From Aquirufa antheringensis (GTDB lineage: Bacteria; Bacteroidota; Bacteroidia; Cytophagales; Spirosomataceae): a stretch of 64,000 bases of DNA. The notes under the pieces were generated by a model. The model searched no databases and was not told the origin of the DNA. It was given only the letters and a program-made list of their open reading frames with translations. The stretch is from assembly GCF_004307425.1 (NCBI RefSeq), contig NZ_SEWZ01000004.1:1-64000 (forward strand). Reading direction: 5' to 3'. The number at the start of each line of letters is the position of its first letter. The stretch's first letter is position 1. Position numbers and translations under genes: made by a program. Shown here in pieces: positions 2,734 through 44,984 of the stretch.

Positions 2734-2766
2734 CATTCACCATTTACCATTCACCATTTACCATTA
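2734..2766. repeat. Degenerate heptanucleotide tandem array, unit CATTYAC
   Basis: Four consecutive 7-mers (CATTCAC, CATTTAC, CATTCAC, CATTTAC) and a partial fifth. The partial copy overlaps the TAA stop codon of the DUF4197 gene at 2764-2766. This is one of seven heptamer arrays in the window. Confidence 0.8.
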
Positions 2767-3483
2767 CTTTTCAAACACTCGCTTCAACAACTCACTCGTC
2801 CGTGCCATTGGATTCGCACGAATATCTTTTTCTTGTTTTGCTATTTCGCTGTAGATTCCTTCCATCGCCTTTTCTGTTACATAGGCACTTAGATCAGGGT
2901 TGATTTTCTTATTACTGAACGGAATCGCATTATAAGCTGTGATAGCCTTTTCCCAGTATTTGGTGGCGTTTACTTTGTCTAAGGACGTTTTTACGATAGG
3001 ATTAAAGGTCGATTTCAAATTATCGGTGGTCTTTGAGCGCAAATAAGAAGTAGCTGCTGTTTCATCGCCACGTAGAATGTTGATGCCATCTGTGATGGTC
3101 ATTTGTTTGATGGCGTTCACAAAGATGGGTGCGGCGGTAGCGGAAGCATCTTCTGCCGCGCGGTTCATACTAAGGATGAAATCGTCCGCTAATTGGTTTA
3201 AGCCCACACTTCTGAGGGTGCTTTCGACTTTAGCAGCTTCTGGTGGCATAAGGATTTTTAAGGCAGCATTTTTGAAGAATCCATCTGGTTTTGCGAGGTT
3301 TGCGCAGCCTTTTTCGGCTCCTACAGCTAAGGCTTCTTTGAGGCCATTGGCAATATCATCTGAACTTAAGCCTGTTTTAGTGGCGCCGGAAGCGATTTCG
3401 GTGGCTTTTTTGAGTATGCCTTGGAAGGATTGGGCTTTGGACTGTATTGAAAACAATAATAACAGGATTAGGAATTTTTTCAT
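2764..3483 (-). CDS. DUF4197 domain-containing exported protein
   Basis: A 239-residue protein with a signal peptide (MKKFLILLLLFSIQSKAQS, cleavage near 18). The body is largely helical and matches DUF4197: GLKEALAVGAEKG near the N-terminus, a central DGINILRGDETAATSYLR segment, and a C-terminal region ending in NPMARTSELLKRVF. DUF4197 proteins are periplasmic and of unknown function. The ATG at 3483 is the first Met and leads straight into the signal peptide. Heptamer arrays flank the gene on both sides. Confidence 0.85.
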   Translation of the reverse strand: MKKFLILLLLFSIQSKAQSFQGILKKATEIASGATKTGLSSDDIANGLKEALAVGAEKGCANLAKPDGFFKNAALKILMPPEAAKVESTLRSVGLNQLADDFILSMNRAAEDASATAAPIFVNAIKQMTITDGINILRGDETAATSYLRSKTTDNLKSTFNPIVKTSLDKVNATKYWEKAITAYNAIPFSNKKINPDLSAYVTEKAMEGIYSEIAKQEKDIRANPMARTSELLKRVFEK

Positions 3484-3494
3484 GATATCAATTT

Positions 3495-3526
3495 AAAGAA
3501 TAAAGCATAAAGCACAAAGAATAAAG
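3495..3526. repeat. Degenerate heptanucleotide tandem array, unit AAAGCAC
   Basis: Units AAAGAAT, AAAGCAT, AAAGCAC, AAAGAAT and a partial AAAG, all in 7-base register, lie just upstream of the DUF4197 start. The small hairpin ATCCC-TTGC-AGGGAT follows near 3533-3548. Confidence 0.75.
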
Positions 3527-3564
3527 TTGGTATCCCTTGCAGGGATGACCATATGAAATATTTC

Positions 3565-3648
3565 GACTATCGGCTATCGACTATCGGCTATCGACTAGTG
3601 ACTATCGACTAGTGACTATCGACTTTCGACTAGTGACTATCGACTAGC
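3565..3648. repeat. Degenerate heptanucleotide tandem array, unit GACTATC, 12 copies
   Basis: Twelve uninterrupted 7-mers (GACTATC, GGCTATC, GACTAGT and GACTTTC variants) fill 84 bases of the 219-base gap between the DUF4197 and M28 peptidase genes. The same GACTATC/GACTAGT units recur at 44947-44984, more than 41 kb away. No ORF or terminator uses this DNA. Confidence 0.9.
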
Positions 3649-3702
3649 AACTAAATTTACCGAATAATTACTATCTTTAAACACACTTTTTATTAACTGT
3701 CT

Positions 3703-5073
3703 ATGAAATTTCGTTTCCTACCCTTATTACTCCTTCCCCTCTTTTCTAACGCACAATCCAATGTCGATAGTCTCTTTATCAAGAAAATGTCTGATGAGAT
3801 TATGACGAACGGAAAGGCTTATGACTTATTGTATGAGTTAACCAAAAAGATTGGCGGGCGTTTAGCCGGTTCTCCACAGGCGCAGAATGCGGTGATTTGG
3901 GGTAAGAAAAGTTTAGAGGCGATGGGTCCAGATAAAGTGTTCTTGCAGCCGGTGAAAACACCGAATTGGAAGCGTGGAGGGAATGATTTTGTGGCGATTA
4001 CGGGGGTGAATGGGGAGGCGAGAATGCAGCCATTGGCGGCTTTGGCCTTAGGGAATTCCCTAGGTTCGAATGGATTAATCGAGGCGGAAGTGGTCGCAGT
4101 GGCTAGTTTCGAGGAATTAGAGAAGCATAAGGAAGAGGTGAAAGGCAAGATTGTGTATTTCCACAGTGTTTTTGATCCGACAAAAATTCAGACGTTTAAG
4201 GCTTATGGCGAGAGTGGCGCTTTTCGCCGTTCTGGTGCGAGTAAAGCCGCGAAATATGGTGCGGTGGCGGTGTTAATTCATTCACTGAGCACGGCACCGG
4301 ATAATGAGCCGCATACCGGTGTGATGGTCTATGATGAAGCATATCCGAAGATTCCAGCGGTGGCTTTAGGTCCGAATGATGCGAAGATGCTATATTCTTT
4401 GGCCAAAAAAGGAACCATCAAAGCCCAAGTACAAACTTACGGTTTCTTCCTTCCAGATGCGGATGACAACAACGTAATTGCAGAAATCCGAGGATCTGAA
4501 TTCCCAGACCAATACATCACCTTAGGCGGTCACTTAGACAGCTGGGACGTAAATGAGGGCGCACACGACGACGGCGCCGGCATCGTCCAAACGATGGAAG
4601 TATTACGCGTTATGAAAGCGTTAAACTACAAACCAAAACGTAGCATCCGTTTTGTCCTATTCGCTAATGAAGAAAATGCCGCGCGTGGTGGCAAGGAATA
4701 TGCGAACCAAGCCAAAATCAACAAAGAGAACCACATTTTTGTCATTGAAAGTGATGAAGGCGGCTTCACTCCTCGTTCCATCGGAATTACAGCCCCTCCT
4801 GCTCAATTCGCTAGATTTCAAACGTGGACTCCCCTATTAAAGCCTTACGGTTCTGAGATTACTTTTGGCGGTGGCGGTACGGACATTGCTCCTATGGCCG
4901 GTATCAATAAAGAATCCATCTTAGCGGGACTTATCCCTGACAGCCAACGCTATTTCGATTTACACCATGCAAAGACGGACGTGTTCGAAAACGTAAACAA
5001 AAGAGAATTACATTTAGGTGCCGTGAACATGGCAGCCATCATCTATTTAATTGATAAATACGGCGTAAAATGA
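3703..5073 (+). CDS. Secreted M28 family metallopeptidase (carboxypeptidase Q-like)
   Basis: A 456-residue exported zinc aminopeptidase/carboxypeptidase. It has a signal peptide (1-18), a PA-type insert (about 110-245), and the M28 catalytic domain. Visible metal and catalytic residues are H277 and D289 (GGHLD...AHDDGAG), the Glu pair in NEENAARGG (323-324), D351 and H422 (DLHHAKTD). The closest general match is plasma glutamate carboxypeptidase/Q-type enzymes, which trim peptides in the periplasm. Its stop overlaps the start of the ThuA gene by four bases (ATGA), so the two are translationally coupled. The strand composition changes sharply inside the gene near 4400. Confidence 0.9.
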   Translation: MKFRFLPLLLLPLFSNAQSNVDSLFIKKMSDEIMTNGKAYDLLYELTKKIGGRLAGSPQAQNAVIWGKKSLEAMGPDKVFLQPVKTPNWKRGGNDFVAITGVNGEARMQPLAALALGNSLGSNGLIEAEVVAVASFEELEKHKEEVKGKIVYFHSVFDPTKIQTFKAYGESGAFRRSGASKAAKYGAVAVLIHSLSTAPDNEPHTGVMVYDEAYPKIPAVALGPNDAKMLYSLAKKGTIKAQVQTYGFFLPDADDNNVIAEIRGSEFPDQYITLGGHLDSWDVNEGAHDDGAGIVQTMEVLRVMKALNYKPKRSIRFVLFANEENAARGGKEYANQAKINKENHIFVIESDEGGFTPRSIGITAPPAQFARFQTWTPLLKPYGSEITFGGGGTDIAPMAGINKESILAGLIPDSQRYFDLHHAKTDVFENVNKRELHLGAVNMAAIIYLIDKYGVK

Positions 5074-5882
5074 GATTAACGACATTATTTCTGCTTTTTG
5101 CTTTTGCATCTTTCGCATCATTCGCGCAAAAGACTTCTTATTCGGTTCTTGTGTACACGAAAAATGGCCCTGGCTACGTGCACGATAATATACCCTCTGC
5201 GGTAGCCGCAGTTCAGAAGTTAGGCTCTGAAAATCACTTTCAAGTGGATGTTTCTGCTGATCCTGTGGTGTTTGAAGAACAGAATTTGGCCAAATACAAA
5301 GTCATCATCTTCACCTCCACTAACAACGACGTCTTCGACACAGACGCCCAGCGCGTCGCTTTCCGCCGCTACATCGAAGCCGGTGGCGGATTCGTGGGCG
5401 TGCACTCGGTAACGGGCACAGAACGCAAATGGAGCTGGTTCAAATCGATGGTAGGCGAAACGTTCTCCTGGCACGCCAAGTTCCAGCCTTTCTCGGTCAT
5501 CAACATCGCCCCATCCCACCCTTCCCTACAAGGAGTCCCATTAAAATGGACGAAGGAAGACGAATGCTATTTTGGCTTTGAACTTTACCCCGGCATCCAA
5601 ACACTAATGATGCATGACGTGACTACCTTAGATCCGTCTCAAAAAGAACTCATCACAAAACACAAAGGCGTCTATGGGGACTATTTCCCAGCGGTCTGGA
5701 CCCAACACTTCCAAGGCGGACACATCTGGGTCACCACCCTAGGCCACGCGAAAGAAAACTACCAAGAACCGACCTACTTAAACCACTTGTTGCAAGGGAT
5801 CAATTACATCGCAGGTCAGGTTCGCAAAATCGATTACTCGAAGGCTTTCTCGACGGGTAAAGATGATGGGTTGAGGTTTTAA
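5070..5882 (+). CDS. Secreted ThuA domain protein
   Basis: This 270-residue protein has a signal peptide (1-19) followed by a ThuA-like glutamine-amidotransferase-fold domain. Visible elements are VLVYTKNGPGYVHDNIPSA at the start, GGGFVGVHSVTG at the nucleophile-elbow position (His-Ser instead of a catalytic Cys), and a C-terminal PAVWTQHFQGGHIWVTTLGH motif. ThuA proteins are associated with disaccharide utilisation in rhizobia and are abundant in Bacteroidota sugar-degradation loci, where the exact reaction is uncertain. The ATG at 5070 overlaps the peptidase stop. Confidence 0.88.
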   Translation: MRLTTLFLLFAFASFASFAQKTSYSVLVYTKNGPGYVHDNIPSAVAAVQKLGSENHFQVDVSADPVVFEEQNLAKYKVIIFTSTNNDVFDTDAQRVAFRRYIEAGGGFVGVHSVTGTERKWSWFKSMVGETFSWHAKFQPFSVINIAPSHPSLQGVPLKWTKEDECYFGFELYPGIQTLMMHDVTTLDPSQKELITKHKGVYGDYFPAVWTQHFQGGHIWVTTLGHAKENYQEPTYLNHLLQGINYIAGQVRKIDYSKAFSTGKDDGLRF

Positions 5883-5919
5883 ATTGGGATTTCTTTTTCC
5901 TTTTTTCGCGAAAAATGCC

Positions 5920-5927
5920 CATTTTTG
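5920..5927 (+). promoter_or_regulatory. Bacteroidota -7 promoter element
   Basis: CATTTTTG matches 7 of 8 positions of TAnnTTTG and ends four bases before the ATG at 5932. This argues for the short form of the lipoprotein gene and for a near-leaderless mRNA. Confidence 0.5.
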
Positions 5928-5931
5928 CACC

Positions 5932-6279
5932 ATGATTAGAGTATTTATAGTGGCTTTGGCCTCCGTGTTCATCTTAAATTCGTGTAAAAAAACCTCTGCT
6001 GAAATCGAGGGCGAAGTGCGTGAATTGTGGTTACAAAATCTTCAAAAAGAGCAGGTTACAGGTGTAAGTGTCCTAGATGTTTCCTTAGTTCAAAAGAGTG
6101 ATTCGCTCTATACAGGTATATTGAAAACCAAAGAGCCAGAGGGTACTTTCTTGTACAATCTGGAGGTAACCCGTGCGGGAGATCAGCTTAGTTACGAGGT
6201 AATTGGGGATGGTATTCCGACCGATGGCCGAAATACCCACGAACCCGATGATCAGCCTGTGGTGACTGATTCCTTATAA
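5932..6279 (+). CDS. Small lipoprotein of unknown function
   Basis: A 115-residue protein beginning MIRVFIVALASVFILNSCKK, a type II signal peptide with lipobox LNSC (Cys 18). The mature part is about 98 residues, acidic, ends in PDDQPVVTDSL and has no known domain. An in-frame ATG at 5884 would add 16 residues, but the promoter-like CATTTTTG sits between the two ATGs and the lipobox is only well placed from 5932, so I use 5932. It converges on the acylase gene with a one-base gap. Confidence 0.7.
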   Translation: MIRVFIVALASVFILNSCKKTSAEIEGEVRELWLQNLQKEQVTGVSVLDVSLVQKSDSLYTGILKTKEPEGTFLYNLEVTRAGDQLSYEVIGDGIPTDGRNTHEPDDQPVVTDSL

Positions 6280-6280
6280 T

Positions 6281-8341
6281 TTATTCCGGCTGATAGATAC
6301 GTTCCGCATTTTTCAGTATTTCCGCTTTATCTAAAGTCATCACCTTCGTCTTCTGAGCCTGGTAAAGTTCGCGTTGATCTGCGAAATGTTTCGAATCCGG
6401 ATGCGAACTAGCGCCAAAAGTATTCACCGTCTCAATCAGCGGCAAACCTCCGCCTTTGGGAAACTTCACAAAACCGATGTAGGCATCGCCTGAATTCATC
6501 TTACGTTGTGATTCACCCATAGGCTCAGACATAACTGCCGCTAACACATCTGGCATTCCCGCTTGTGGCCAATCTTGATCTCCCCTTTTCAGGCGTTGGA
6601 ACTCCCCTAGCGTCACGTCCAAGCGGCCGTAGTGCTTCAGTAAGAAATCGTGCACGTACTGCGTTAGCTCGACTGCTTCCGATTCTGTTAAGGGATCTTT
6701 CGATGCGTTTTTACGTATTTTAGAGGCCCCATAATACGCGATGTTATAATACAAAGCGCCTATACTTTCGATATTGGTCACATGGTCCCATTCTTTCAAT
6801 TCCTTTATAATAGTCGCTAAGGACGGGTATTTAGCCGCATCAAGCGTAAATAGCACCGAAGCATCGTATCCATAGGGATATAAAATCTTCGCTGGTAATT
6901 GACGATCGAACTTGATGCGCTTTAAATCTTCCCAACCTATTTTGTCGTAAGTATCAATTAAGTCCTTAGCCCGCTGTGAACGGTTATTGTGGTAGGTCTC
7001 GTATCCGTCGTATTTATCGTAGTTCGCTGGATTTAGATTCTCATTAACGGCCGTCGCCATAAAGGGCGAGTGATTCGTGTTAAACAAATACCCAGCTGCA
7101 GGATTCAAATGCTGAGGTAATTCATTCAGCGGTTTGAACTTCTGCCAAAGCGTCTCCCGCGTATTTCCTGGCAAGGTGGAGGCCCAGTTGTATTTGGCAT
7201 TACGATACGGCATCTTCCCATTCGAGATATAGAATATGTTGTCCTCCTTATCTGCGTACATGATGTTGAACATAGGCAGGTGATTCTGGTTTAACGCCGC
7301 CTTGAATTCCGTGAAGTTCGTAGAGCGGTTCATCGCATACCACTGCTGAAGAGCGCCGGCGTCCATTAAGGACGGAAGACGTAAGGAGAAATAGCCACCT
7401 TTGGGCGATTTCACCGTAGGGCCATAAATCGATTCGTAGGCCATCTTAGAGACCGAGAAAGGAATCCCTTTGATGTTCAGCTTTATTCTTCTTTTCACTA
7501 AAGGAAGCCATTCGCCATCCACCTCGTATTGACCCGGATGCGCTTTGTCCGTCTTCAATTGATAGACGTCGATTTTGTCCTGGAAATTTACCGTATGTGC
7601 CCAAGCGAGATTAGGTGTCACCCCGTGGAAGATCAATGGACCGCCAGGGAACAAACCACCCAAGATATTCCAACCCTCCTCCGATTGCACATGAGCCTCA
7701 TAGAAAGCCGTAGCGCCCTCGATGGGCTGATGCGCATTAATGACTAACATCGGCTCGCCAGTAGCCGATTTCGAGCTCTTAATGGCAAAGGCATTACTCC
7801 CTTCTCCCGTAAAGCCGGGAAGCGAGGGAATGGAGCCATCGAGGATTTTGGGCAAAGCCTTATCCACTCCACAGAAAATAGCCACCGAAAACATCGTCGT
7901 CGCTATATAATCTTCTATCGCAATAGGAAATACGTGCTTGTTCACCACTTCCGATGGATGTGCCTTCCCATAGGCTTCTAGCCCCATCAGGTAGCCCTGC
8001 ACTAATTGCAGAAAGCGAGGATCCATCGCCTTGATCTGTTGATCCACCACTTTGCGCGTATTCAATAAGCCAAAAACAAAATCCACCGGCGCGCCTTTCT
8101 TGCCAAGGTGTGTGCCTAACTTGCCCTTACCGGTTAGAATAAGCGTCTGAATCGTCTTAAAGTCATCCTCTGAATGCGCCCAGGCTAAACCATAAGCTAC
8201 TTCTGGATCTGTAGGCGCAAATATGTGTGGAACCCCGTAAGAATCGCGTGCGATCGTTATTTTGTCCTTGCGGATAATCGGCTGTTGCTGGGCATTTGCC
8301 CAAAAAGTAAAAAGGCAAAGAGCTAGTAGTTTTAATTTCAT
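6281..8341 (-). CDS. Penicillin acylase family Ntn-hydrolase (secreted amidase)
   Basis: A 686-residue precursor with a signal peptide (1-17), an alpha-chain region, and the autoproteolytic serine in GEGSNAFA (S182), which becomes the N-terminal nucleophile of the beta chain. The family cleaves amide bonds of N-acylated compounds (beta-lactams, acyl-homoserine lactones, lipopeptides such as aculeacin) in the periplasm. It is the last gene of a four-gene operon; its ATG overlaps the TGA of the PIG-L gene (ATGA). Together with GH30 and PIG-L it suggests stepwise breakdown of an N-acylated sugar or glycolipid, which is inference. A paralogue lies at 25823-27934. Confidence 0.9.
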   Translation of the reverse strand: MKLKLLALCLFTFWANAQQQPIIRKDKITIARDSYGVPHIFAPTDPEVAYGLAWAHSEDDFKTIQTLILTGKGKLGTHLGKKGAPVDFVFGLLNTRKVVDQQIKAMDPRFLQLVQGYLMGLEAYGKAHPSEVVNKHVFPIAIEDYIATTMFSVAIFCGVDKALPKILDGSIPSLPGFTGEGSNAFAIKSSKSATGEPMLVINAHQPIEGATAFYEAHVQSEEGWNILGGLFPGGPLIFHGVTPNLAWAHTVNFQDKIDVYQLKTDKAHPGQYEVDGEWLPLVKRRIKLNIKGIPFSVSKMAYESIYGPTVKSPKGGYFSLRLPSLMDAGALQQWYAMNRSTNFTEFKAALNQNHLPMFNIMYADKEDNIFYISNGKMPYRNAKYNWASTLPGNTRETLWQKFKPLNELPQHLNPAAGYLFNTNHSPFMATAVNENLNPANYDKYDGYETYHNNRSQRAKDLIDTYDKIGWEDLKRIKFDRQLPAKILYPYGYDASVLFTLDAAKYPSLATIIKELKEWDHVTNIESIGALYYNIAYYGASKIRKNASKDPLTESEAVELTQYVHDFLLKHYGRLDVTLGEFQRLKRGDQDWPQAGMPDVLAAVMSEPMGESQRKMNSGDAYIGFVKFPKGGGLPLIETVNTFGASSHPDSKHFADQRELYQAQKTKVMTLDKAEILKNAERIYQPE

Positions 8342-13471: not shown

Positions 13472-13506
13472 AGGTTTAAATTTCATTAAAGGTATCGATT
13501 ATTTAC

Positions 13507-13541
13507 AAAAAAATAAACCGCCTTTTTGAGGGGCGGTTTAT
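13507..13541 (-). terminator. Rho-independent terminator of the dab-sulP operon
   Basis: Perfect 10-bp stem ATAAACCGCC (13513-13522) / GGCGGTTTAT (13532-13541), nine-base loop, followed on the minus strand by seven T (13513-13507). It lies between the sulP stop and the GH30 start. Confidence 0.9.
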
Positions 13542-13548
13542 AGTTGTC

Positions 13549-13616
13549 CAAAGACCAAAGTTCAAAGTCCAAAGTCTGATTTGGGAAATTGCTCCGGACT
13601 AAATCCCTCCGGACTA
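13549..13616. repeat. Heptamer array CAAAGTC plus a 10-bp direct repeat at the sulP stop
   Basis: 13549-13576 holds four 7-mers (CAAAGAC, CAAAGTT, CAAAGTC, CAAAGTC). Further on, CTCCGGACTA occurs at 13592-13601 and again at 13607-13616; the second copy contains the sulP TAG stop (minus strand, 13614-13616). Confidence 0.75.
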
Positions 13617-15191
13617 TTTCTTCCGTTTCATCGCGGCGGCCTTATGACCTGAGAGCGATTTGTGTGAATCTAACCCTATAAGAGTCACAGATCCACCACC
13701 ACGTTCATAATCGTGTTTAAAGTGTTCGAAATTTTCCATGACGGAGTGATCGACAAGATGCGTTTTGGAAAGGTCAATTGTTACATGGAATCCAGATGGA
13801 ATGGCTTCTAGTTTACGTTTGATTCCCAAGTAATTTGTGAATACCGCAGCATCAGAAATCTCGACAAGGTAGGCGTCATCCGTGAATGAAACCTCCGTAG
13901 GTGCGCTGAATATGGCTTTTAATGGCTTGCCGTTAAATAAATTGACTAAGATTTCGGTCAAAATACCGGCTCCAATTCCCACCAATAAATCTACCCCCAA
14001 AGTGAAAAAGATCGTCACTAGGAAAATCAATAGTTGCTCTTTTCCTTTTTCAAGTGTGTGGATGAATTCTTTAGGGTGGGTTAACTTGATACCCACTGTA
14101 ATTAACATGGCTGCTAATGCTGTATTCGGGATTAACTCAATTAAATGAGCAGCTAATAAGACGAATACTAAAATAAAGAATCCGTGGAAGAAGTTTGCCC
14201 AACGTGTTTTGGCCCCATTCGCGATATTAGCTGATGAACGCGCTACTTCTGAAATCATTGGTAAACCACCTAAAAACGCGACCAATGTATTCCCTATACC
14301 GGTGGCAATCAAATCTTTATTCGCATCTGATTTACGTTTGTAGGGATCTAACATATCCATGGCTTTTACCGTCAAAAGGGATTCCAAAGTACCCACTAGG
14401 GCAAACATAATCACAAACTTGATAAAAGTTCCCGTTTGAGCGAAACCCTCAAACGAGGCGTTGAATTTAATATTATCCACTAAATTACCGATGTGAACAA
14501 GGGCGTATTTGGGCTCTGTTGTTTGGAAATCCATCAATAATTCTGCGGGGATAGCGATTGCTAAAACGACTAAAGGGGCAGGTACTTTTTTAATTAGCGG
14601 GTTCTTGATATACGGCCATCCCATCATAATGATTAAGCTGATCGCACCGATTAAAGTAGCCTTGGGGTCCCAATTCGCAATAAATTCAGGTATGGCTGCG
14701 AATAATTCCAAAGGTTCTTTTCCTTTGGCTAGGATTGGATTCACGTCTAAAAATACTGGAATCTGCTTGCCTATGATGATTAATCCAATCGCTGCTAACA
14801 TACCGTGTACGGCAGAAAGGGGGAAGAAATCCATCAATTTGCCCAGTTTGAATACCCCGAAAAGGATTTGGACTAAACCCGCTATCACCATCGCTCCTAG
14901 GGCTAAATGCCAGCCTTGTTCTCCTCCGCCAAATTCAGCTACAGCTCCCGCCACAATCACAATTAATCCAGCTGCAGGTCCTTTTATGGTTAAACGTGAT
15001 CCACTAAATAAACTGACAACGATACCCCCAATGATGGCGGTAAGTAAACCCATAATCGGAGGGAAATCCGATGCTTTAGCAATCCCTAAACTTAAAGGAA
15101 GCGCTAATAAAAAAACAATAAATCCAGAGGCTGCGTCTGACGCATAGTTCTCTTTTAATCCGGCTAGGCCGTCTTTAGGTATATTCTTCAT
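13614..15191 (-). CDS. SulP family anion permease (bicarbonate/sulfate) with STAS domain
   Basis: A 525-residue transporter. It has about 12 membrane segments in the SLC26/SulP fold (FIVFLLALPLSLGIA, SGSRLTIKGPAAGLIVIVAG, GGLPMISEVARSSANI) and a C-terminal cytoplasmic STAS domain (about 420-520; FHVTIDLSKTHLVDHSVMENF). SulP members such as BicA move bicarbonate with sodium, while others move sulfate. Being third in a dabA-dabB-sulP operon, bicarbonate is the best inference. The start at 15191 is one base after the dabB stop; an upstream in-frame ATG at 15257 would overlap dabB by 65 bases and adds no family sequence. Confidence 0.88.
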   Translation of the reverse strand: MKNIPKDGLAGLKENYASDAASGFIVFLLALPLSLGIAKASDFPPIMGLLTAIIGGIVVSLFSGSRLTIKGPAAGLIVIVAGAVAEFGGGEQGWHLALGAMVIAGLVQILFGVFKLGKLMDFFPLSAVHGMLAAIGLIIIGKQIPVFLDVNPILAKGKEPLELFAAIPEFIANWDPKATLIGAISLIIMMGWPYIKNPLIKKVPAPLVVLAIAIPAELLMDFQTTEPKYALVHIGNLVDNIKFNASFEGFAQTGTFIKFVIMFALVGTLESLLTVKAMDMLDPYKRKSDANKDLIATGIGNTLVAFLGGLPMISEVARSSANIANGAKTRWANFFHGFFILVFVLLAAHLIELIPNTALAAMLITVGIKLTHPKEFIHTLEKGKEQLLIFLVTIFFTLGVDLLVGIGAGILTEILVNLFNGKPLKAIFSAPTEVSFTDDAYLVEISDAAVFTNYLGIKRKLEAIPSGFHVTIDLSKTHLVDHSVMENFEHFKHDYERGGGSVTLIGLDSHKSLSGHKAAAMKRKK

Positions 15192-32751: not shown

Positions 32752-32759
32752 CTTTTACA

Positions 32760-32972: not shown

Positions 32973-32975
32973 AAT

Positions 32976-33719: not shown

Positions 33720-33723
33720 AATT

Positions 33724-33912: not shown

Positions 33913-33916
33913 AGGT

Positions 33917-36195: not shown

Positions 36196-36252
36196 GGCCT
36201 ACCCATTTTATTTGTTGCAATTTCGGGACAAAGCCCTTCGCAAAACCTGACT

Positions 36253-38676: not shown

Positions 38677-38687
38677 AATGGAATGTT

Positions 38688-38695
38688 CAAATTTC
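38688..38695 (-). promoter_or_regulatory. -7 promoter element of ccoI
   Basis: Minus-strand GAAATTTG matches 7 of 8 positions of TAnnTTTG and ends 11 bases before the ccoI ATG. No clear -33 TTG element is seen, which would fit an activator-dependent promoter. Confidence 0.45.
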
Positions 38696-38739
38696 CGGAG
38701 TTTCGCTGTTGATTATCGTGATAAATAACACGTTCAAAA

Positions 38740-38753
38740 CTGATGAATATCAG
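38740..38753. promoter_or_regulatory. FNR/FixK-like operator dyad
   Basis: Perfect inverted repeat CTGAT-GAAT-ATCAG, one base per half-site from the FNR consensus TTGAT-N4-ATCAA. It lies in the 124-base divergent region between ccoI and the cyclic-nucleotide-binding gene, with its centre about 40 bases upstream of the latter's predicted start site and about 60 from that of ccoI. A second weaker dyad, TTATC-GT-GATAA, is at 38713-38724. Confidence 0.65.
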
Positions 38754-38775
38754 GTATTGGGAACGTTTATCCCTG

Positions 38776-38783
38776 TACTTTCG
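38776..38783 (+). promoter_or_regulatory. -7 promoter element of the cyclic-nucleotide-binding gene
   Basis: TACTTTCG resembles TAnnTTTG (7 of 8) and lies 17 bases before the ATG at 38801. The spacing to the dyad at 38740-38753 would suit a class II activator. Confidence 0.4.
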
Positions 38784-38800
38784 CCTTATTATTTAAGCCC

Positions 38801-39187
38801 ATGAACAATTTTTCAGATACGGAACGAAAAGTGTTAGCTAGTGGAATCGAACTCCGCTATTTGCCTGATGAATATTTATTTCGTCAAGGCCAAAAAGCAG
38901 AATTTGTATTTTACCTGCAAGAAGGCAGCCTCGTGTTAGAAGGACCGGCTGGCTTTGTGACCATCGATCGGAAAGGTGTTTTTATTGGAATTGAGGAAGC
39001 AATCGAAGAGAAAAAGCATGTGTATGCTGCGATGACTTCGAGTTATTCACAATTTTTGGTTTTTGAACGGAAGTATTTTAAACAATTAATCGATGAATTC
39101 GATTTAGCCCTTCCCTATTTTGAGTATAAAAAAGCGGAATTCAATGAACTCTTACAGAAGGTTCAATTGAATTATGCTACGGTATAA
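38801..39187 (+). CDS. Cyclic-nucleotide-binding domain protein without HTH
   Basis: This 128-residue protein is a single cNMP-binding beta-roll of the Crp/Fnr type (LRYLPDEYLFRQGQKAEFVFYLQEGSLVL) followed by a helix. It ends at residue 128, where the dimerisation helix would lead into a helix-turn-helix; no DNA-binding domain follows in any frame up to the terminator. It is divergent from ccoI and shares its regulatory region, which suggests a role in cbb3 control, perhaps as a decoy or co-sensor. This is inference. The stop is TAA and no frameshift is evident. Confidence 0.75.
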   Translation: MNNFSDTERKVLASGIELRYLPDEYLFRQGQKAEFVFYLQEGSLVLEGPAGFVTIDRKGVFIGIEEAIEEKKHVYAAMTSSYSQFLVFERKYFKQLIDEFDLALPYFEYKKAEFNELLQKVQLNYATV

Positions 39188-39217
39188 ATGATTAGAGTGG
39201 TATTTAATTGGGTTTTG

Positions 39218-39250
39218 GCTCCCTTTTGCTTTTAGCGGAAGGGAGCTTTA
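39218..39250. terminator. Bidirectional terminator
   Basis: Stem GCTCCCTT / AAGGGAGC (39218-39225 / 39239-39246) followed by TTTATTTT. It separates the convergent cyclic-nucleotide-binding gene and SDR gene; the SDR stop (39248-39250) directly follows the stem. Confidence 0.7.
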
Positions 39251-40054
39251 TTTTAAGGGACTATCCTTTTCCTTTTTCAGGGTATTGTAGACCATTTTGT
39301 CCAAAAATCCATTCATCCATTTATTTAGGAATACGGTTAATTTACCTTGGAAAGTGAGTACTAACGTCTTCTTCTTAGATTCATAAGCCTCAGCAATGCG
39401 TTTAGCCACTTCTTCAGCAGACATCATTTCTCCCTCATCCCGCATGGAATCACCTGTCACTTTCCCCTCACTGTTTAAAGAGGCTGCTCTAATATTCGAA
39501 GCAGTGAATCCGGGGCAAGCAATTAAGACATGAACACCCGTTTCTAATAACTCTGTTCTCAAGGCTTCTAAGAAACCATTCATCGCGAATTTGGAGGCAG
39601 AATACCCTGTTCTGACGGGAAGTCCGCGGTAACCTGCGATAGAAGATATACCTATTATTCCACCTTTTGCGGCTTTTATATGGGGTAATGCCGCGTGTGT
39701 GGCGTAAACTGTTCCCCAGAAATTAATGTCCATCACTTGTTTCAATACCTTGAGGTCGACCGTTTCAAACATCGATCGCATGGAGATTCCTGCGTTATTG
39801 ATTAGCAGATCAATTCTGCCAAACAGGTGCATCACCTGATCTACCATGGCACGTGTTTGTTCCTCAGAGGCTGAGTCGCAGACGATGCCTTTGGCAGCTA
39901 TGCCTGCTTCCTGTAATTCCGCTTCTGCAGCCAATAGATTCTGCTCATTTCTACCCGTGATGACGATTTGAGCTCCTTTTCTGCCGTATTCAAAGGCTAA
40001 CGCTTTTCCGATTCCAGAACTAGCTCCCGTGATGATAACTACTTGATTCTTCAT
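39248..40054 (-). CDS. SDR family oxidoreductase
   Basis: A 268-residue classical short-chain dehydrogenase. It has the cofactor motif TGASSGIG, NNAG, catalytic Ser in GIISIAG-type strand (ISSIAG) and YSASK. A C-terminal segment of about 30 residues contains a hydrophobic patch and WMNGFLDKM. The substrate is unknown. I use ATG 40054 rather than 40069 because a TAACTTCG promoter-like element ends two bases before the first ATG and SDR sequence begins right after the second. It is divergent from rlmD. Confidence 0.85.
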   Translation of the reverse strand: MKNQVVIITGASSGIGKALAFEYGRKGAQIVITGRNEQNLLAAEAELQEAGIAAKGIVCDSASEEQTRAMVDQVMHLFGRIDLLINNAGISMRSMFETVDLKVLKQVMDINFWGTVYATHAALPHIKAAKGGIIGISSIAGYRGLPVRTGYSASKFAMNGFLEALRTELLETGVHVLIACPGFTASNIRAASLNSEGKVTGDSMRDEGEMMSAEEVAKRIAEAYESKKKTLVLTFQGKLTVFLNKWMNGFLDKMVYNTLKKEKDSPLK

Positions 40055-40120
40055 GTGAATTAATTTCATCGCGAAGTTAAGGTTTTATCTTGAATTGGTT
40101 GGCTTGCCCACATAAAGCCG

Positions 40121-40128
40121 TATTTTTG
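40121..40128 (+). promoter_or_regulatory. -7 promoter element of rlmD, exact TAnnTTTG
   Basis: TATTTTTG ends 17 bases before the ATG at 40146. It overlaps an in-frame GTG at 40128, which is therefore unlikely to be the start. Confidence 0.6.
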
Positions 40129-40145
40129 TGCACATTTTTAGCAGC

Positions 40146-41567
40146 ATGAGTCAGAAAAAAGAAAAGAAAGCCCCAGTGGTGTTGGAACAAATTGCCATTT
40201 TGGATTTTGCCGCTGAGGCAAAGTGTATTGCCAAAGTGAATGAGGAAGTGATTTTTGTTCAAGGTGCTGTCGCTCCTGGCGATATCGCTGATTTACGTAT
40301 ATTGAAGTCCAAAAAAAGCTTCAAACAAGCCCAAGCCATCAATATTCAGCCACTTTCTAAACACCGTACAGACGTAGCCTGTAGCCATTTTGGCATTTGT
40401 GGCGGTTGTAAGTGGCAACACGTTTATTACGAAGCTCAAACCGCTTTTAAAGCGCAACAAGTCAAAGATAATTTGACCCGCATCGCTAAAGTGAAATTGC
40501 CCGATTTTCAACCGATTCTAGGTTCTGAGGAGACCTATTACTACCGCAATAAATTAGAATTCACCTTTTCTTGTGCCCGCTGGCTGACGGAAGATGAAAT
40601 TGGTAAAGAAGATTTAGGATCGATGAATGCCTTGGGATTCCATGTCCCAGGCCGTTTTGATAAGATTTTGCCAGTTGATCATTGCTATTTGCAACCTGAT
40701 CCATCCAATGCGATTCGCAATGGAGTGCGTGATTTCGCTGAAGCGAATGGTATCTCCTATTATGAATTAAAGAATCAAAAAGAAGGAGCTTTACGTAATT
40801 TAATTATCCGAAATACGGTTACAAACGAATGGATGGTCACCGTCCAGTTTGCCTATGCCACAGAAGAGGAAATAAAATCAGTCATGGAGTATTTGAAGTC
40901 AACATTCCCGATGATCACCTCTTTGAATTATGTGGTGAATCAAAAAGGAAATGACACTTTTCATGATTTAGACGTAGTTTGCTACCATGGAAAACCTTTT
41001 ATGGTAGAAATAATGGAAGATTTGAAGTTCCAAATTGGACCTAAATCATTCTTTCAAACGAATGCAAAGCAAGCGCTCAAGCTATACCAACTAGTGCGTG
41101 AATACGCTGATTTGCAAGGAAATGAAGTTGTTTACGACTTGTATACGGGTACAGGAACTATTGGTTTGTTTTTAGCGAAACACGCGTCTAAAGTTGTTGG
41201 CCTCGAATACGTCGAGATGGCCGTAGAAGATGCACGTATTAATGCCGAATTAAATGGTATCAAGAATGCAACCTTCTTTGCCGGTGATATGAAGAAAGTC
41301 TTGACAGAAGAATTTATTGCTATCCACGGCGCGCCAGATGTCATTATTACCGATCCTCCTCGTGCAGGAATGGATCTGGATGTGGTGAATCAAATATTAG
41401 CCGTTAAGCCAAAGAAAATCGTTTACGTTTCTTGTAATCCGGCTACTCAGGCTCGCGATTTAGCCTTACTGGATGTTGCCTATGAAGTAGATGTGGTTCA
41501 TCCGGTGGATATGTTCCCTCAGACGCATCATGTGGAGAATATAGTGAGGTTGAAATTAAGAGCATAG
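40146..41567 (+). CDS. rlmD: 23S rRNA (uracil-1939-C5)-methyltransferase RlmD-type
   Basis: A 473-residue TrmA/RlmD family methyltransferase. It has an N-terminal TRAM domain (about 10-70), an iron-sulfur Cys set (CSHFGICGGCKWQH), and an SAM-binding domain with FFQTNAKQ, YTGTGTIGLFLA and DPPRAGM. The catalytic Cys lies in VSCNPATQARDL and the C-terminal general base in HHVEN. It methylates U1939 or a similar uridine in 23S rRNA or tRNA. The family includes RlmCD and TrmA, so the exact target is by homology only. A large hairpin starts at its stop codon. Confidence 0.88.
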   Translation: MSQKKEKKAPVVLEQIAILDFAAEAKCIAKVNEEVIFVQGAVAPGDIADLRILKSKKSFKQAQAINIQPLSKHRTDVACSHFGICGGCKWQHVYYEAQTAFKAQQVKDNLTRIAKVKLPDFQPILGSEETYYYRNKLEFTFSCARWLTEDEIGKEDLGSMNALGFHVPGRFDKILPVDHCYLQPDPSNAIRNGVRDFAEANGISYYELKNQKEGALRNLIIRNTVTNEWMVTVQFAYATEEEIKSVMEYLKSTFPMITSLNYVVNQKGNDTFHDLDVVCYHGKPFMVEIMEDLKFQIGPKSFFQTNAKQALKLYQLVREYADLQGNEVVYDLYTGTGTIGLFLAKHASKVVGLEYVEMAVEDARINAELNGIKNATFFAGDMKKVLTEEFIAIHGAPDVIITDPPRAGMDLDVVNQILAVKPKKIVYVSCNPATQARDLALLDVAYEVDVVHPVDMFPQTHHVENIVRLKLRA

Positions 41568-41636
41568 AATATTTCATTACGCGATTCCGAAATTGTGCTG
41601 CGCAATAATTTCTTGAACCGCGCAATAAAATATTCT
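41566..41636. repeat. Nested 71-nt inverted repeat directly after rlmD
   Basis: The outer arms AGAATATTTCATTACGCG (41566-41583) and CGCGCAATAAAATATTCT (41619-41636) pair at 16 of 18 positions. Inside, GAAATTGTGC (41589-41598) pairs with GCAATAATTTC (41602-41612). The left arm begins inside the rlmD TAG. No T-run follows, so it is not a standard terminator. Confidence 0.75.
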
Positions 41637-41675
41637 AATGCCTAATTTAACTCTACTCTAACTGCAATAAAATGG

Positions 41676-41701
41676 AAAAAGGGCGATTAATCGCCCTTTT
41701 T
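41676..41701. terminator. Bidirectional terminator between rlmD and dnaB
   Basis: A perfect 26-bp palindrome AAAAAGGGCGATT / AATCGCCCTTTTT, with A- and T-runs on both flanks. It serves both convergent genes. Confidence 0.85.
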
Positions 41702-41736
41702 ATTCTTCAGAAATGTATTCCCGAAGGGAATTCCAA

Positions 41737-41771
41737 CTTTGTACTTTTTGCTTTGCTATTTGTGCTTTACT
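41737..41771. repeat. Degenerate heptanucleotide array near the dnaB 3' end
   Basis: Five 7-mers on the plus strand (CTTTGTA, CTTTTTG, CTTTGCT, ATTTGTG, CTTTACT). On the dnaB strand the unit reads GCACAAA, a cyclic permutation of the AAAGCAC unit at 3495-3526. Confidence 0.7.
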
Positions 41772-41801
41772 TTTAAAAAATTGCATTGCAATTTTTTAAA
41801 A
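41771..41801. repeat. 31-nt perfect inverted repeat spanning the dnaB stop
   Basis: Fifteen-base arms (TTTTAAAAAATTGCA and its exact complement) with a single central T at 41786. The dnaB stop codon (41796-41798, minus strand) lies in the right arm. Base content is almost all A/T. Confidence 0.75.
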
Positions 41802-43385
41802 CGGAGTGTTCAATGGATCATAATCCTCTGGAGGTAAATTCATCTTACTTCCTTTGAAAACAGAATCATTGCTTGACTCAAAAGCGGATGTTTGATCACC
41901 TAGTGCACTTAAGTCGAAGTTACCCCCTTCATTGTTTGAGAACGGTTGGAAGTCTAAATCGCAGTATTTAGTGAATTTACCGATGAATTTCAGCCAAACA
42001 CTGTCGAGTGAACCGGAACGGTTTTTGGCCATAATGATCTCTCCCATTCCCGTGATGGAGTTTCCTTGATCATCCGCCGTGATGCCATAATATTCTGGAC
42101 GGTAGATGAACATTACCTGATCGGCATCTTGCTCGATGGCTCCAGATTCACGAAGGTCAGACAGTTGCGGTTTCTTGTTTCCTCCACGCGTCTCGGTAGA
42201 ACGGTTTAATTGAGAAAGGGCAATGACAGGCACATCTAATTCTTTGGCTAATTGCTTCAGTGCACGGGAAATTTGGGCGATTTCTTGCTCGCGATTTCCG
42301 CTGGCTCCTTTACCCGAACTATCTCCGGTCATTAGCTGTAAGTAATCGATGACGATGAGGTCAATGCCTTTTTGGGCTTTTAAACGACGACATTTTGCTC
42401 TTAATTCCAAAATCGATAAGGCCGGCGTATCATCAATAAACATATTCGCTTCAAATAATTTATTGATTTTCGTATGTAGCTGCTGCCATTCGTGTGGCTC
42501 CAATTTTCCTTTACGGATTTTATCAGCCTCGATTTCTGCTTCTGCAGAAATGATACGATTCACAAGTTGAACGGCACTCATCTCAAGGGAGAACAACGCG
42601 ACTGAGTGATTGAAATCTACCGCAGCATTACGGCAAGCCGAAACGACGAAGGCCGTCTTACCCATACCTGGACGAGCCGCGATAATGATTAATTCTTGTC
42701 GCTGCCAGCCAGATGTCAAGCGGTCTAAGTCTGTAAATCCGGATGGAATACCCGTTAAGCCACTTTTTTGTAATTGTTTCTTTTCTAATTCATCCACAGC
42801 TTTCTTTAAGATATCCGACATACTTTCGTAATTCTTACGGATATTGGATTCTGCGATGGTAAAAAGTTCCTGCTCCATCTTATCCAGTAAATGGAACACG
42901 TCAGACGTGTCTTCATAGGATAGACGTTGGATTTCGGAGGATATTTGGATTAGCTGACGCTTCAAATATTGCTCAATAATGATTCTGGCGTGGAATTCAA
43001 CGTTCGAAGTGGAACTAACCCGCGAAGTTAATTGCGCTAAGTAGCTGGTGCCACCTGCTTTTTCCAAACTGCCATTTTGCTTCAAGTAATTATTAACCGT
43101 CAATAAATCAACGGGTTGAGAAGCTTGGAATAAACCTTGAATTGCCTCGAATATCAACTGATGCCCTTCTTTGTAAAAGGAATCAGGTTTTAATAATTCG
43201 ATGACGTTTGCCAAAGGTTCTTTCTCTAACATCAAAGCCCCTAGCAAGGCTTCTTCTAGGTCAACCGCTTGCGGAGGTAATTTTCCTAGCCCCAAATCGC
43301 TTAAACGCGTGGGTCCTGTCTGCGAACGAATGCCAGCAGACTGATTTCCTTTTTTATAAATGGATGAAGGGGTGTTAGATTCCAT
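41796..43385 (-). CDS. dnaB: Replicative DNA helicase DnaB
   Basis: A 529-residue hexameric helicase. The N-terminal DnaB domain (about 35-140; PPQAVDLEEALLGALM) and linker precede the RecA-like domain (190-470). That domain has Walker A ARPGMGKTAF, Walker B LIVIDYLQLM, the SQLNRSTE/LSDLRESGAIEQDAD motifs, and a long acidic Gly/Asn/Ser-rich C-tail. It unwinds DNA at the replication fork. It is single copy in this window, monocistronic, and divergent from phoH. Confidence 0.96.
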   Translation of the reverse strand: MESNTPSSIYKKGNQSAGIRSQTGPTRLSDLGLGKLPPQAVDLEEALLGALMLEKEPLANVIELLKPDSFYKEGHQLIFEAIQGLFQASQPVDLLTVNNYLKQNGSLEKAGGTSYLAQLTSRVSSTSNVEFHARIIIEQYLKRQLIQISSEIQRLSYEDTSDVFHLLDKMEQELFTIAESNIRKNYESMSDILKKAVDELEKKQLQKSGLTGIPSGFTDLDRLTSGWQRQELIIIAARPGMGKTAFVVSACRNAAVDFNHSVALFSLEMSAVQLVNRIISAEAEIEADKIRKGKLEPHEWQQLHTKINKLFEANMFIDDTPALSILELRAKCRRLKAQKGIDLIVIDYLQLMTGDSSGKGASGNREQEIAQISRALKQLAKELDVPVIALSQLNRSTETRGGNKKPQLSDLRESGAIEQDADQVMFIYRPEYYGITADDQGNSITGMGEIIMAKNRSGSLDSVWLKFIGKFTKYCDLDFQPFSNNEGGNFDLSALGDQTSAFESSNDSVFKGSKMNLPPEDYDPLNTPF

Positions 43386-43488
43386 ACCACAATTTTACGT
43401 TAAATTTTCAAAATTATCTTATAAAGGAAGATATTAAATTTCAGGAATTTCTTATTTTTACTCCCATACGATTTAAACCCATTTTTAC

Positions 43489-44448
43489 TTGTTAGAAAAA
43501 ATAATTTCCCTCTCAGAGGTCTCTCTAATTGACTTTTTAGGCGTTGCAAACGCAAATATCAATTTATTGATTAACGCCTTCCCTCAGTCCAAAATCATCG
43601 CTCGTGGTGAACAATTAACCGTCCGTGGATCGAATGATCAGATTGCTTTAGTCGAAGCGATTGTGAACTCTTGTGTGGCCCATTTGGACAAGCATGCTAC
43701 CCTCACGGAAAAGCATATGCAAGCCTATATCGATTCGGTTTTAAATCCGACGGGTGAGGAAACGGATCAGCCGTGGGTGGAGGATAAAGACGTGCTTCTT
43801 TTTGGCAATAAAGGAATCGTGATTAAGGCCAAAACTCCGAATCAACGTAAACTGGTCGATGCCGCCACTACGAATGACATCGTCTTCGCGATTGGACCTG
43901 CCGGTACGGGTAAAACCTATACCGCAGTGGCTTTGGCAGTGAAAGCATTGAAGAATAAAGAAGTAAAGAAAATCATCATCACGCGTCCAGCTGTTGAGGC
44001 AGGCGAAAATCTAGGTTTCTTACCAGGTGATTTGAAAGAGAAAATTGATCCGTATTTGCGTCCTATTTATGATGCGTTGGATGATATGATTCCGGCAGAG
44101 AAATTGAAATTTTATTTAGAAAATCGGACGATTGAAATTGCGCCTTTGGCCTATATGCGTGGACGTACTTTAAACAAAGCTTTTATTTTGTTAGATGAAG
44201 CCCAAAACACGACATCCATGCAAATGAAGATGTTTTTGACACGTATGGGTATTCAATCGAAGACGATTATTACGGGGGACAAATCACAGGTCGATTTGCC
44301 TAAAAACCAAACATCAGGTTTGGGAGAAGCAGAACGCATCCTTTCTGGAATAAATGGGATTGCCTTTGTCGAATTGGACGGTTCAGATGTCGTTCGTCAC
44401 CGTTTAGTGCGTAAAATTATCGAGGCATATGGGAAACAAGAAAAATAG
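43489..44448 (+). CDS. phoH: PhoH family ATPase
   Basis: A 319-residue PhoH-like P-loop protein. It has an N-terminal KH-like region (1-85; IDFLGVANANINLLINAFP), Walker A in FAIGPAGTGKTYTAVALA, the PhoH signature RPAVEAGENLGFLPGDLKEK, and Walker B FILLDEAQNTT. Family members are linked to RNA metabolism and YbeY-associated ribosome maturation. There is no ATG upstream within the frame after the last stop; translation from TTG at 43489 gives the expected family N-terminus. It overlaps the GNAT gene by 20 bases. Confidence 0.9.
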   Translation: MLEKIISLSEVSLIDFLGVANANINLLINAFPQSKIIARGEQLTVRGSNDQIALVEAIVNSCVAHLDKHATLTEKHMQAYIDSVLNPTGEETDQPWVEDKDVLLFGNKGIVIKAKTPNQRKLVDAATTNDIVFAIGPAGTGKTYTAVALAVKALKNKEVKKIIITRPAVEAGENLGFLPGDLKEKIDPYLRPIYDALDDMIPAEKLKFYLENRTIEIAPLAYMRGRTLNKAFILLDEAQNTTSMQMKMFLTRMGIQSKTIITGDKSQVDLPKNQTSGLGEAERILSGINGIAFVELDGSDVVRHRLVRKIIEAYGKQEK

Positions 44449-44875
44449 GATCATACAGGCGATTAGTCCGCAAGAAATCGAACAGGTGTTTGCCATTCGT
44501 ACCGAAGTGTTTGTCAAAGAACAAAAGTGCTTGCCCTCTGAGGAATTTGATGAGTTAGATGCAGTAGCCAAACATTATTTACTGTTTGATGACGCCACAC
44601 CAGTGGCAACCGGTCGATACCGCAAAACAGATAAAGGAATTAAGGTGGAGCGAATCGCTACGCTGGAATCAGCGCGTGGTAGAGGCTATGCTTCCCTAAT
44701 TATTCAGCATATTTTTTCAGAATCCGCTAAAGAATACCCGGATTGCACTCATTATTATTTACACGCTCAGGTTTCCGTGATGCCACTTTATGCATCCTTA
44801 GGGTTTCAGCCTTACGGAGATACGTTTATTGAGGCGGATATTGTGCATCAAGCGATGGAGCTGTCTAGTCGCTAG
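44429..44875 (+). CDS. GNAT family N-acetyltransferase (ElaA-like)
   Basis: A 148-residue acetyltransferase. It has the N-terminal VFAIRTEVFVKEQKC strand, the GRYRKTD and ERIATLESARGRGYASLII elements (R/Q-x-x-G-x-G/A acetyl-CoA loop), and a C-terminal HAQVSVMPLYASLGFQPYGD motif. This resembles the ElaA/YjcF group; the substrate is unknown. It overlaps the phoH 3' end by 20 bases, so the two are co-transcribed. Its last residues (Ser-Ser-Arg-stop) are encoded by the heptamer array that begins at 44865. Confidence 0.85.
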   Translation: MGNKKNRIIQAISPQEIEQVFAIRTEVFVKEQKCLPSEEFDELDAVAKHYLLFDDATPVATGRYRKTDKGIKVERIATLESARGRGYASLIIQHIFSESAKEYPDCTHYYLHAQVSVMPLYASLGFQPYGDTFIEADIVHQAMELSSR

Positions 44876-44888
44876 TCGCTAGTCGCTA
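44865..44888. repeat. Heptanucleotide array CTAGTCG x3.4 crossing a stop codon
   Basis: Three perfect CTAGTCG copies and a CTA remnant. The first two copies encode the end of the GNAT protein and its TAG stop (44873-44875). CTAGTCG is the complement of CGACTAG, found in the arrays at 3565 and 44947. Confidence 0.85.
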
Positions 44889-44913
44889 AAGTTACATTCG
44901 ATAGCTCGTAAAA

Positions 44914-44942
44914 AAAAAGCCAGAACGATGTTCCAGCTTTTT
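44914..44942. terminator. Bidirectional terminator
   Basis: AAAAAGC / GCTTTTT arms with an inner GAAC / GTTC pairing, lying between the convergent GNAT and DUF3127 genes, with A- and T-runs on both sides. Confidence 0.65.
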
Positions 44943-44946
44943 AATT

Positions 44947-44984
44947 TATCGACTATCGACTAGTGACCAGTGACTATCGACTAG
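44947..44984. repeat. Degenerate heptanucleotide array, unit GACTATC, at the DUF3127 stop
   Basis: TATC followed by 7-mers GACTATC, GACTAGT, GACCAGT, GACTATC and GACTAG. The last unit contains the complement of the DUF3127 TAG stop (44981-44983). The units are the same as at 3565-3648. Confidence 0.85.

Follow-up and report, generated by a model that had tools for sequence, protein, structure and literature searches.

Heptanucleotide arrays in an Aquirufa antheringensis genome as probable solo arms of small elements carrying a PF05635 four-helix-bundle gene

In REPIN-RAYT systems, inverted pairs of short repeats lie in intergenic spacers and a vertically kept master gene is bracketed by cognate repeats; the type of repeat is tied to the type of gene, and the RAYT protein is a Y1/HUH transposase. 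Avd, the accessory protein of diversity-generating retroelements (DGRs), binds nucleic acid. Other described repeats are tandem heptamers: the cited sections of the literature place TAACTGA repeats in Beggiatoaceae, cyanobacteria and Bacteroidetes (PMC4679880) and GGGNATC repeats in Xanthomonas and Nostoc (PMC4692102), with F. litoralis among the bearers (PMC4679880, PMC4692102), and describe 3-4 tandem heptamers (GACAGAT/GACAGAA), variable in number between strains, before the S23p open reading frame (ORF) of the Coxiella intervening sequence (IVS) (PMC4990558). Here we analyse the degenerate tandem heptamers of a 64,000-nucleotide stretch of Aquirufa antheringensis DNA (contig NZ_SEWZ01000004.1, positions 1 to 64,000), which we call the window, together with similar arrays in the same genome, in its relatives and in other phyla.

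These arrays are probably non-autonomous: solo copies of the inverted heptamer arms found at either end of small elements that form a family. The full form of such an element, or cassette, consists of an array in + orientation, a gene for a PF05635 four-helix-bundle (4HB) protein and an array in - orientation. The reading builds on what can be observed directly: the architecture of the cassettes, the pairing of protein with dialect (by which we mean a family of heptamer units), the polarity and turnover of the arrays, the exchange of both arms at once in two spacers, and the presence of the same arrangement in other phyla. In this reading each protein type goes with its own dialect (TAGTCG, CAGTAG, AATGG, AAAGCA, AGAGTA, AAAGTTC, AGTCCG and others), with complete cassettes at few conserved loci and solo arrays, often as inverted pairs, in many spacers, chiefly at 3' ends. 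The solo arrays turn over fast, so that relatives can differ in dialect at the same spacer. The 4HB protein may bind its own heptamers and favour, in trans, their copying or retention; in transcripts, paired arms might form a stem of the RNase III type like that of rRNA intervening sequences and so render insertions harmless; and the dialect of a genome would follow its resident master gene.

With REPIN-RAYT systems these elements share cognate inverted pairs in spacers, a master gene within the repeats and the pairing of repeat type with gene type, but the 4HB protein has no Y1/HUH match in Pfam or NCBIfam, and the units are tandem heptamers where those of REPINs are palindromes. Like an rRNA IVS with an S23/IVP ORF, the complete form contains a PF05635 ORF, has inverted ends that form a long stem (for the cassettes, a predicted one) and measures about 0.4-0.7 kb; unlike it, the elements here are intergenic, have protein-specific dialects and occur with many solo arrays throughout the genome. 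A copy in an Azospirillum 23S rRNA gene has GACRGAN arms that resemble the GACAGAT heptamers of the Coxiella IVS as quoted from PMC4990558. The published short tandemly repeated repetitive sequences (STRRs), TAACTGA and GGGNATC repeats are likewise tandem intergenic heptamers of several unit types that vary between close relatives; the cited sections name no gene partner for them, whereas here the partner is PF05635. TAACTGA repeats also lie mostly just upstream of start codons, while the arrays described here favour convergent spacers, and the TAACTGA unit is not among the arrays listed for the window's genome. PF05635 resembles Avd, according to the cited part of PMC10053308, yet the 4HB protein scores 19.9 bits on NF033474, for which the cut-off is 80. 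Copying driven by a reverse transcriptase, as in DGRs, was considered and rejected, as RVT_1 (PF00078) has no match in the window's genome; among 39 genomes searched, 11 have such a match. We set the element class apart as new because it lacks a defining feature of REPIN-RAYT systems, of DGRs and, for the intergenic forms, of rRNA IVSs; if any S23-bearing element is counted as an IVS, the elements may be placed within that group. Among the open papers we searched, none was found that ties PF05635 to dispersed heptamer arrays, which is not proof that none exists.

Between the inverted arrays of pairs spaced about 500 bp lies a gene whose product matches PF05635 (23S_rRNA_IVP, 1.2e-33) and the four-helix-bundle family TIGR02436; its domain matches are limited to PF05635 in Pfam and to families of four-helix-bundle type in NCBIfam. 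A complete cassette has a predicted RNA fold of -271 kcal/mol (z -16). PF05635 is found in 30 of 39 genomes (the window's own included) and in none of 14 control genomes; across the phylum, 157 of 198 sampled genomes have it. Fetched loci, which do not hold every match, gave 75 PF05635 ORFs; without 3 duplicates, 44 belong to the genus and 28 to other families of the order. In flanks of 300 nt, period-7 arrays accompany 31 of the 44 genus genes on at least one side and 22 on both. The corresponding counts are 15 and 7 of 28 for the other families and 16 and 5 of 29 for relatives of the AATGG-type protein within the phylum. Controls give 95 and 5 among 906 genes of G000 (the window's genome), G007 and G013, and 2 and 0 among 60 DUF4197 genes of the phylum. 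Flanks that are inverted copies of each other (score at least 18) were found for 40/44 genus genes, 13/27 genes of other families and 10/28 AATGG-type phylum relatives, and for 0/60 of the DUF4197 controls. When flank pairs were permuted, 15/216 (genus), 0/132 (other families), 3/137 (AATGG relatives) and 0/144 (the 30 best PF05635 matches of the phylum) scored as inverted; direct-repeat flanks were seen in 4/44, 4/27, 2/28 and 1/30, in the same order. Cassettes of the MRVSKF type, which are without strict heptamers, have inverted AGTCCG modules in five of five cases. In the MRIYHF type, also without strict heptamers, inverted modules that combine TTAGTC with a small hairpin flank the gene in four of five cassettes, those whose flanks were inspected (L314, L312, L313, L210). 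No match was obtained when relatives of the TAGTCG-type protein were sought in phages.

The arrays themselves are specific to one period. In 704 kb of the window's genome (the window, a further 240 kb of its contig and 400 kb from three other contigs), 33 arrays have period 7, none has a period of 1-6, 8 or 9, and the remaining non-multiple periods up to 30 yield 0-5 each. Some array sites were already known when the 200 kb from contigs C2 and C3 and several stretches of G007 and G013 were chosen, which may inflate the densities and leaves the test of genomic context unaffected. That test, over three genomes, places 29 of 60 arrays in convergent spacers, where spacer length predicts 11.1, and 2 in divergent spacers, where it predicts 19.2; the 60 exclude arrays in called ORFs (7 in the window's genome, 1 in G007) and one unplaced G013 array. 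The arrays inside ORFs as called here make up 7 of the 33 in the census. The GACTATCGACTA pattern has 87 copies in the genome and the same pattern reversed has none. A reading as G4 structures or rut sites was set aside: most of the heptamer units are not rich in G. The arrays are heptanucleotide simple sequence repeats (SSRs) of the STRR kind: tandem 7-nt units, intergenic, many per genome.

Their unit families are few (TAGTCGN, AATGGTR, AAAGCAN/AAAGAAT, AGAGTAN and AAAGTTC, plus an AGTCCG module of 7+8 nt) and patchily distributed: counting the window's genome each time, the TAGTCG pattern is in 9/39 genomes, AAAGCA in 8/39, CAGTRG in 15/29 and AATGG in 10/29. Cassettes are confined to few loci. 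The spacer between a GTPase gene (MMR_HSR1 in Pfam), which we take to be engB, and the URO-D gene hemE holds 14 of them in different congeners, five TAGTCG, four CAGTAG and five AGTCCG, three of the 14 being seen with one neighbour only. The 4HB proteins at this locus are 75, 76 and 83% identical within types and 54-57% between types. A second locus has an AAAGCA cassette in G013 and an AGAGTA cassette in G002 and G008, with 67% identity. The 4HB gene of the engB/hemE spacer occurs in either orientation (L045, L279, L289, L290 and others), as if flipped between inverted arms.

Solo arrays match these cassettes. For all 35 arrays tested in the window's genome (the 33 of the census and two added stretches of the window), the best match was one of 13 cassette dialects, with a score higher than in any of 20 letter shuffles per array; the next dialect in rank scored 8-26, and only C1:160430 and C4:41737 passed narrowly. 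In G026, from another family, the solo AGACAGT array L425 resembles that genome's own cassette L333, and a second array, L423, was not assigned to one. G004 and G019, which carry the cassettes of the AGGTAAT dialect, have 29 and 37 copies of it.

The + reading of each dialect was fixed after the first pairs had been seen, and corresponds to the arm upstream of the 4HB gene in cassettes. Among 22 pairs of adjacent arrays within one spacer, 17 read + then -, none - then + and 5 in the same direction; the 17 comprise 6 pairs of one dialect and 11 of two dialects. Arrays are directed away from the nearest gene at 3' ends (47/56) and at 5' ends (15/19). A role as stop-codon backup was considered, since TAGTCGN, TAAATGG and TAAAGCA hold a stop on the sense strand, and would fit the 3' ends. 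Selection for stop codons cannot explain the arrays at 5' ends, which also point away from the gene, and we judge the stops a by-product because the same inward polarity holds there and around 4HB genes. By tolerant counts, runs of AAAG and AATG cores have four cores in 24 and 11 cases, five in 25 and 14 and more than five in 3 and 2; runs are longer in other dialects (AGTC up to 26, AGAG 14, CAGT 11).

Comparison with the syntenic relative G007 (255 orthologues, 95.6% median protein identity, 244 conserved gene pairs) shows how the arrays change. At least one of the two genomes has an array in ten spacers, which we read by eye: the dialect is kept at one (113398), the G007 array is absent at one (2687), and at the other eight the sequence type has changed wholly or partly, with the right half kept at 130584 and two TAGTCG-type units at 3483. 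Where G000 has TAGTCG, G007 has CAGTGG/CAGTAG at 44875, 264636 and 271232, and at 44875 and 271232 both arms differ together. Array lengths also differ among relatives. In the GNAT/DUF3127 spacer, the complementarity of the two arms is 14, 18, 21 and 20 within four genomes, 6-7 when dialects are crossed, and 5 and 6 in two relatives without arrays there; the predicted RNA folds lie far below shuffles (z -8.9 in G000, -6.9 in G007). A cruder test, in which G000 and G007 spacers were cut in half, scored 52 and 13 within genomes and 8 and 8 crossed at 271232, and at the unswapped 113398 gave 18 and 17 within against 15 and 18 crossed.

The architecture recurs on plasmids. A tblastn search with two protein types returned 25 and 26 plasmid records, from which 18 and 8 were fetched, the 8 being hand-picked for spread. 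At a distance of no more than 300 nt from the 4HB gene, 18/18 and 6/8 records (24/26) have heptamer arrays above threshold, 16 and 5 of them (21/26) on both sides, and the inverted score is at least 18 in 15/18 and 5/8; among 117 control coding sequences of four of the same records, 4 have arrays, 1 has them on both sides and 2 have inverted flanks. The array-bearing genes belong to Cyanobacteriota, Bacteroidota, Chloroflexota and Spirochaetota; on a Bernardetia plasmid a TTAGTGA array adjoins the 4HB gene, and Nostoc, Anabaena and Planktothrix plasmids have the same architecture around theirs. On the Azospirillum lipoferum 4B plasmid AZO_p2 (Pseudomonadota; L454, 14392-14736), an open PF05635 frame (1.9e-33) sits inside a 23S rRNA gene, as identified with Rfam, between inverted arms of four GACRGAN units each that keep exact 7-nt spacing and fall below the array threshold. 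Inverted heptamer arms are thus found in four phyla by threshold and in a fifth by pattern. Several cyanobacterial plasmid cassettes (L432, L434, L435, L449, L450, L453) lie between or beside CRISPR-cas genes (cas1/cas2, csx2/cas1, cas6/cas4, cas10/cmr3), L437 adjoins a DISARM drmD gene, and L429 and L431 adjoin XisH/XisI genes.

Other explanations have to be weighed against solo arms of a 4HB element. The arrays could be microsatellites made by replication slippage, with easily slipping 7-nt units arising independently at unconstrained 3' ends; the avoidance of divergent spacers and the differing array lengths agree with this, as does a 2007 survey by Mrazek, cited in the relevant section of PMC4679880, in which the long-unit SSRs of most genomes belong most often to the period-7 class. 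Independent slippage would give random heptamers, and what we find is a handful of dialects shared by dozens of loci, each matching a 4HB cassette; nor does it explain why 17 of 17 opposite-direction pairs read + then -, why arrays face inward at 5' ends as well, why both arms were exchanged at once between species in two spacers, or why AAAG and AATG runs mostly end at five cores, although AGTC, CAGT and AGAG runs continue. We regard this explanation as very improbable. The first-pass annotation had suggested slippage-driven or 3'-UTR-related elements: its observation is confirmed, the cause is other than slippage alone, and a 3' untranslated region (UTR) element is too narrow a description for arrays that also lie between divergent genes and around 4HB genes. 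Its pointer to cyanobacterial STRRs gains relevance from the plasmids of Nostoc, Anabaena and Planktothrix.

Somewhat less improbable, though still unlikely, is a regulatory network without mobility, in which 4HB proteins are RNA- or DNA-binding regulators, solo arrays are operator or UTR sites kept by selection and the arms serve autoregulation. The pairing of protein with dialect, the location at gene ends, the retention of cassettes at few loci, the resemblance to Avd noted in the cited part of PMC10053308 and the PDB homologues 2gsc and 2rld, each listed with five chains, would all suit it. Operators should be better conserved, however, than arrays that are often swapped or missing in orthologous spacers at 95.6% median protein identity; many dialects coexist in one genome, and arrays remain where no 4HB gene was found. 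The reverse dependence, in which heptamer arrays spread alone and 4HB genes land or are tolerated in them, gains from the five genomes that have arrays and no detected 4HB gene and from several PF05635 lineages without arrays. Random landing would not give one dialect per protein type, on both sides and at the same locus, nor the inverted heptamer arms that recur across phyla, four of them by threshold and one by pattern, and we give this possibility very little weight.

Several results count against the solo-arm explanation itself. Neither Pfam nor NCBIfam finds a nuclease, transposase or reverse transcriptase domain in the 4HB protein; with no catalytic domain there and no RVT_1 in the window's genome, the system has no known DNA mover, and no clean insertion with a target-site duplication was seen by eye in the ten array-bearing G000/G007 spacers. 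The prediction that every PF05635 gene has heptamer flanks failed for the 30 best-scoring matches of the phylum, of which 4 have arrays on at least one side, none on both, and 7 have inverted flanks. The window's genome has four PF05635 genes, and the cognates of its AAAGCA, AGAGTA, AGTCCG and CAGTRG arrays were not found among them. The prediction that the AGGTAAT dialect occurs only where its cassette is failed in part: 24, 28, 33, 10 and 18 copies stand without a PF05635 match in G001, G009, G010, G014 and G017 (94, 79, 98, 81 and 83% complete), and 12 stretches from G001, G009, G010 and G017 contain no hidden 4HB gene. Other genomes have 0-2 AGGTAAT copies, or 5 in G028, where the reversed control has 8. 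Arrays may outlive the gene, or the gene may be lost in assembly gaps. Many of the compared genomes are fragmented. The half-split test does not separate the arms at 44875 (14 and 10 within, 6 and 11 crossed), where the halving leaves out some of the G007 arm, located within the called gene. The letter shuffle behind the 35 of 35 result is a weak control, and neither the genus counts, which contain orthologous cassettes, nor those from the Nostoc plasmids, some of them close kin, are made up of independent cases.

More tentatively, and with rather more doubt than conviction, PF05635 4HB proteins might actively partner a hitherto unrecognised class of selfish elements, present in at least four and probably five phyla and lacking a transposase of its own. 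A pentameric 4HB ring could recognise a run of some five heptamers in its own dialect, each subunit reading one core, and drive the copying of arrays into spacers; replacement of the master gene would rewrite the dialect genome-wide, and the class would take in rRNA intervening sequences as well as many cyanobacterial STRRs. To tie the five chains listed for each of 2gsc and 2rld to five-core runs is speculation: the whole basis of the pentamer idea is the AAAG/AATG runs and these two PDB entries, and AGTC, CAGT and AGAG runs, unlike AAAG and AATG, exceed five cores. A link between PF05635 and the heptamer arrays would join two old puzzles, the frequency of 7-nt units in bacterial SSRs (STRRs) and the role of the S23/IVP 4HB proteins that 23S intervening sequences encode. 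If it is true, a very common protein family gains a nucleic-acid partner and the heptamer arrays gain an owner, and protein-specific dialects are directly testable.

In the window itself, the first-pass annotation had listed seven arrays, most of them touching gene 3' ends. Tandem Repeats Finder (TRF) and our own period scan, which disagree by a few bases at some array ends, return six as clear (Table 1; the last at 44947-44983), and the seventh, at 41737-41771, was picked up by neither and is weak. The scan gave 6 segments at period 7, where 10 dinucleotide shuffles averaged 0.0, and among periods 2-30 the only other segments were at the multiples 14, 21 and 28. Pfam upholds the gene names (DUF4197, GNAT, DUF3127, Sulfate_transp for sulP, DnaB), and the arrays at 2734, 44865 and 44947-44984 do overlap or touch stop codons. 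The arrays at 3494 and 3563 share a divergent spacer, at 5' ends, so for the window the placement at 3' ends holds only in part; in the larger samples the bias to 3' ends is real, with convergent spacers favoured and divergent ones avoided. The suggested scan, run over 704 kb of the genome, bore out period 7, and the sharing of unit types between distant sites extends to dozens of loci.

Table 1. Heptamer arrays and modules of the window, with scores against cassette dialects.
Position	Strand	Feature	Context	Dialect score (best shuffle); cassette
2734..2765	-	AATGG-dialect solo array, five AATG cores	overlaps DUF4197 stop codon	29 (11); L261, own contig C3
3494..3526	+	AAAGCA-dialect solo array, five AAAG cores	directly upstream of DUF4197 start	26 (11); L213, congener G013
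3563..3653	-	TAGTCG-dialect solo array (+ strand reading GACTATC/GACTAGT)	divergent spacer DUF4197 / M28 peptidase	61 (11); L045, own contig C1
13546..13576	+	AAAGTTC/AAAGACC-dialect solo array	between terminator-like hairpin and sulP 3' end	25 (10); L321, own C1:590319
13591..13616	-	AGTCCG-dialect module (TAGTCCGGAGGG...TAGTCCGGAG on minus strand)	starts at sulP stop codon	19 (12) for 13578-13617; congener cassettes L290, L291, L295, L298, L316
41737..41771	-	weak, degenerate AAAG-type array	near dnaB 3' end	15 (12), weak
44865..44888	+	left arm of inverted pair, TAGTCG dialect	GNAT stop codon inside	
44889..44946	.	loop of inverted pair	contains terminator-like hairpin	
44947..44984	-	right arm of inverted pair, TAGTCG dialect	starts at DUF3127 stop codon	

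The window has no PF05635 gene, and its only Rfam match at the gathering threshold is a tRNA gene (45422-45504), so that by this measure none of the arrays lies in an rRNA gene. An array identical to that at 3494 stands at the same position in L052 and L054, the 3563 site is mostly taken up by other modules in relatives, and the dnaB-end spacer has an ACTCTCT array in G007 instead. The inverted pair at 44865/44947 has a predicted RNA fold of -50 kcal/mol (z -8.9). Short palindromes, GGTATCCCTTGCAGGGATGACC (3529-3550) and GTATTCCCGAAGGGAATTCC (about 41728-41745), adjoin the AAAG-type arrays and are so far assigned to no cassette; one similar to that at the DUF4197 site is found again in L051, L052 and L054. 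In G028, eight perfect CGTAATT units (L234, C1:2020537-2020593) lie five bases off a called gene.

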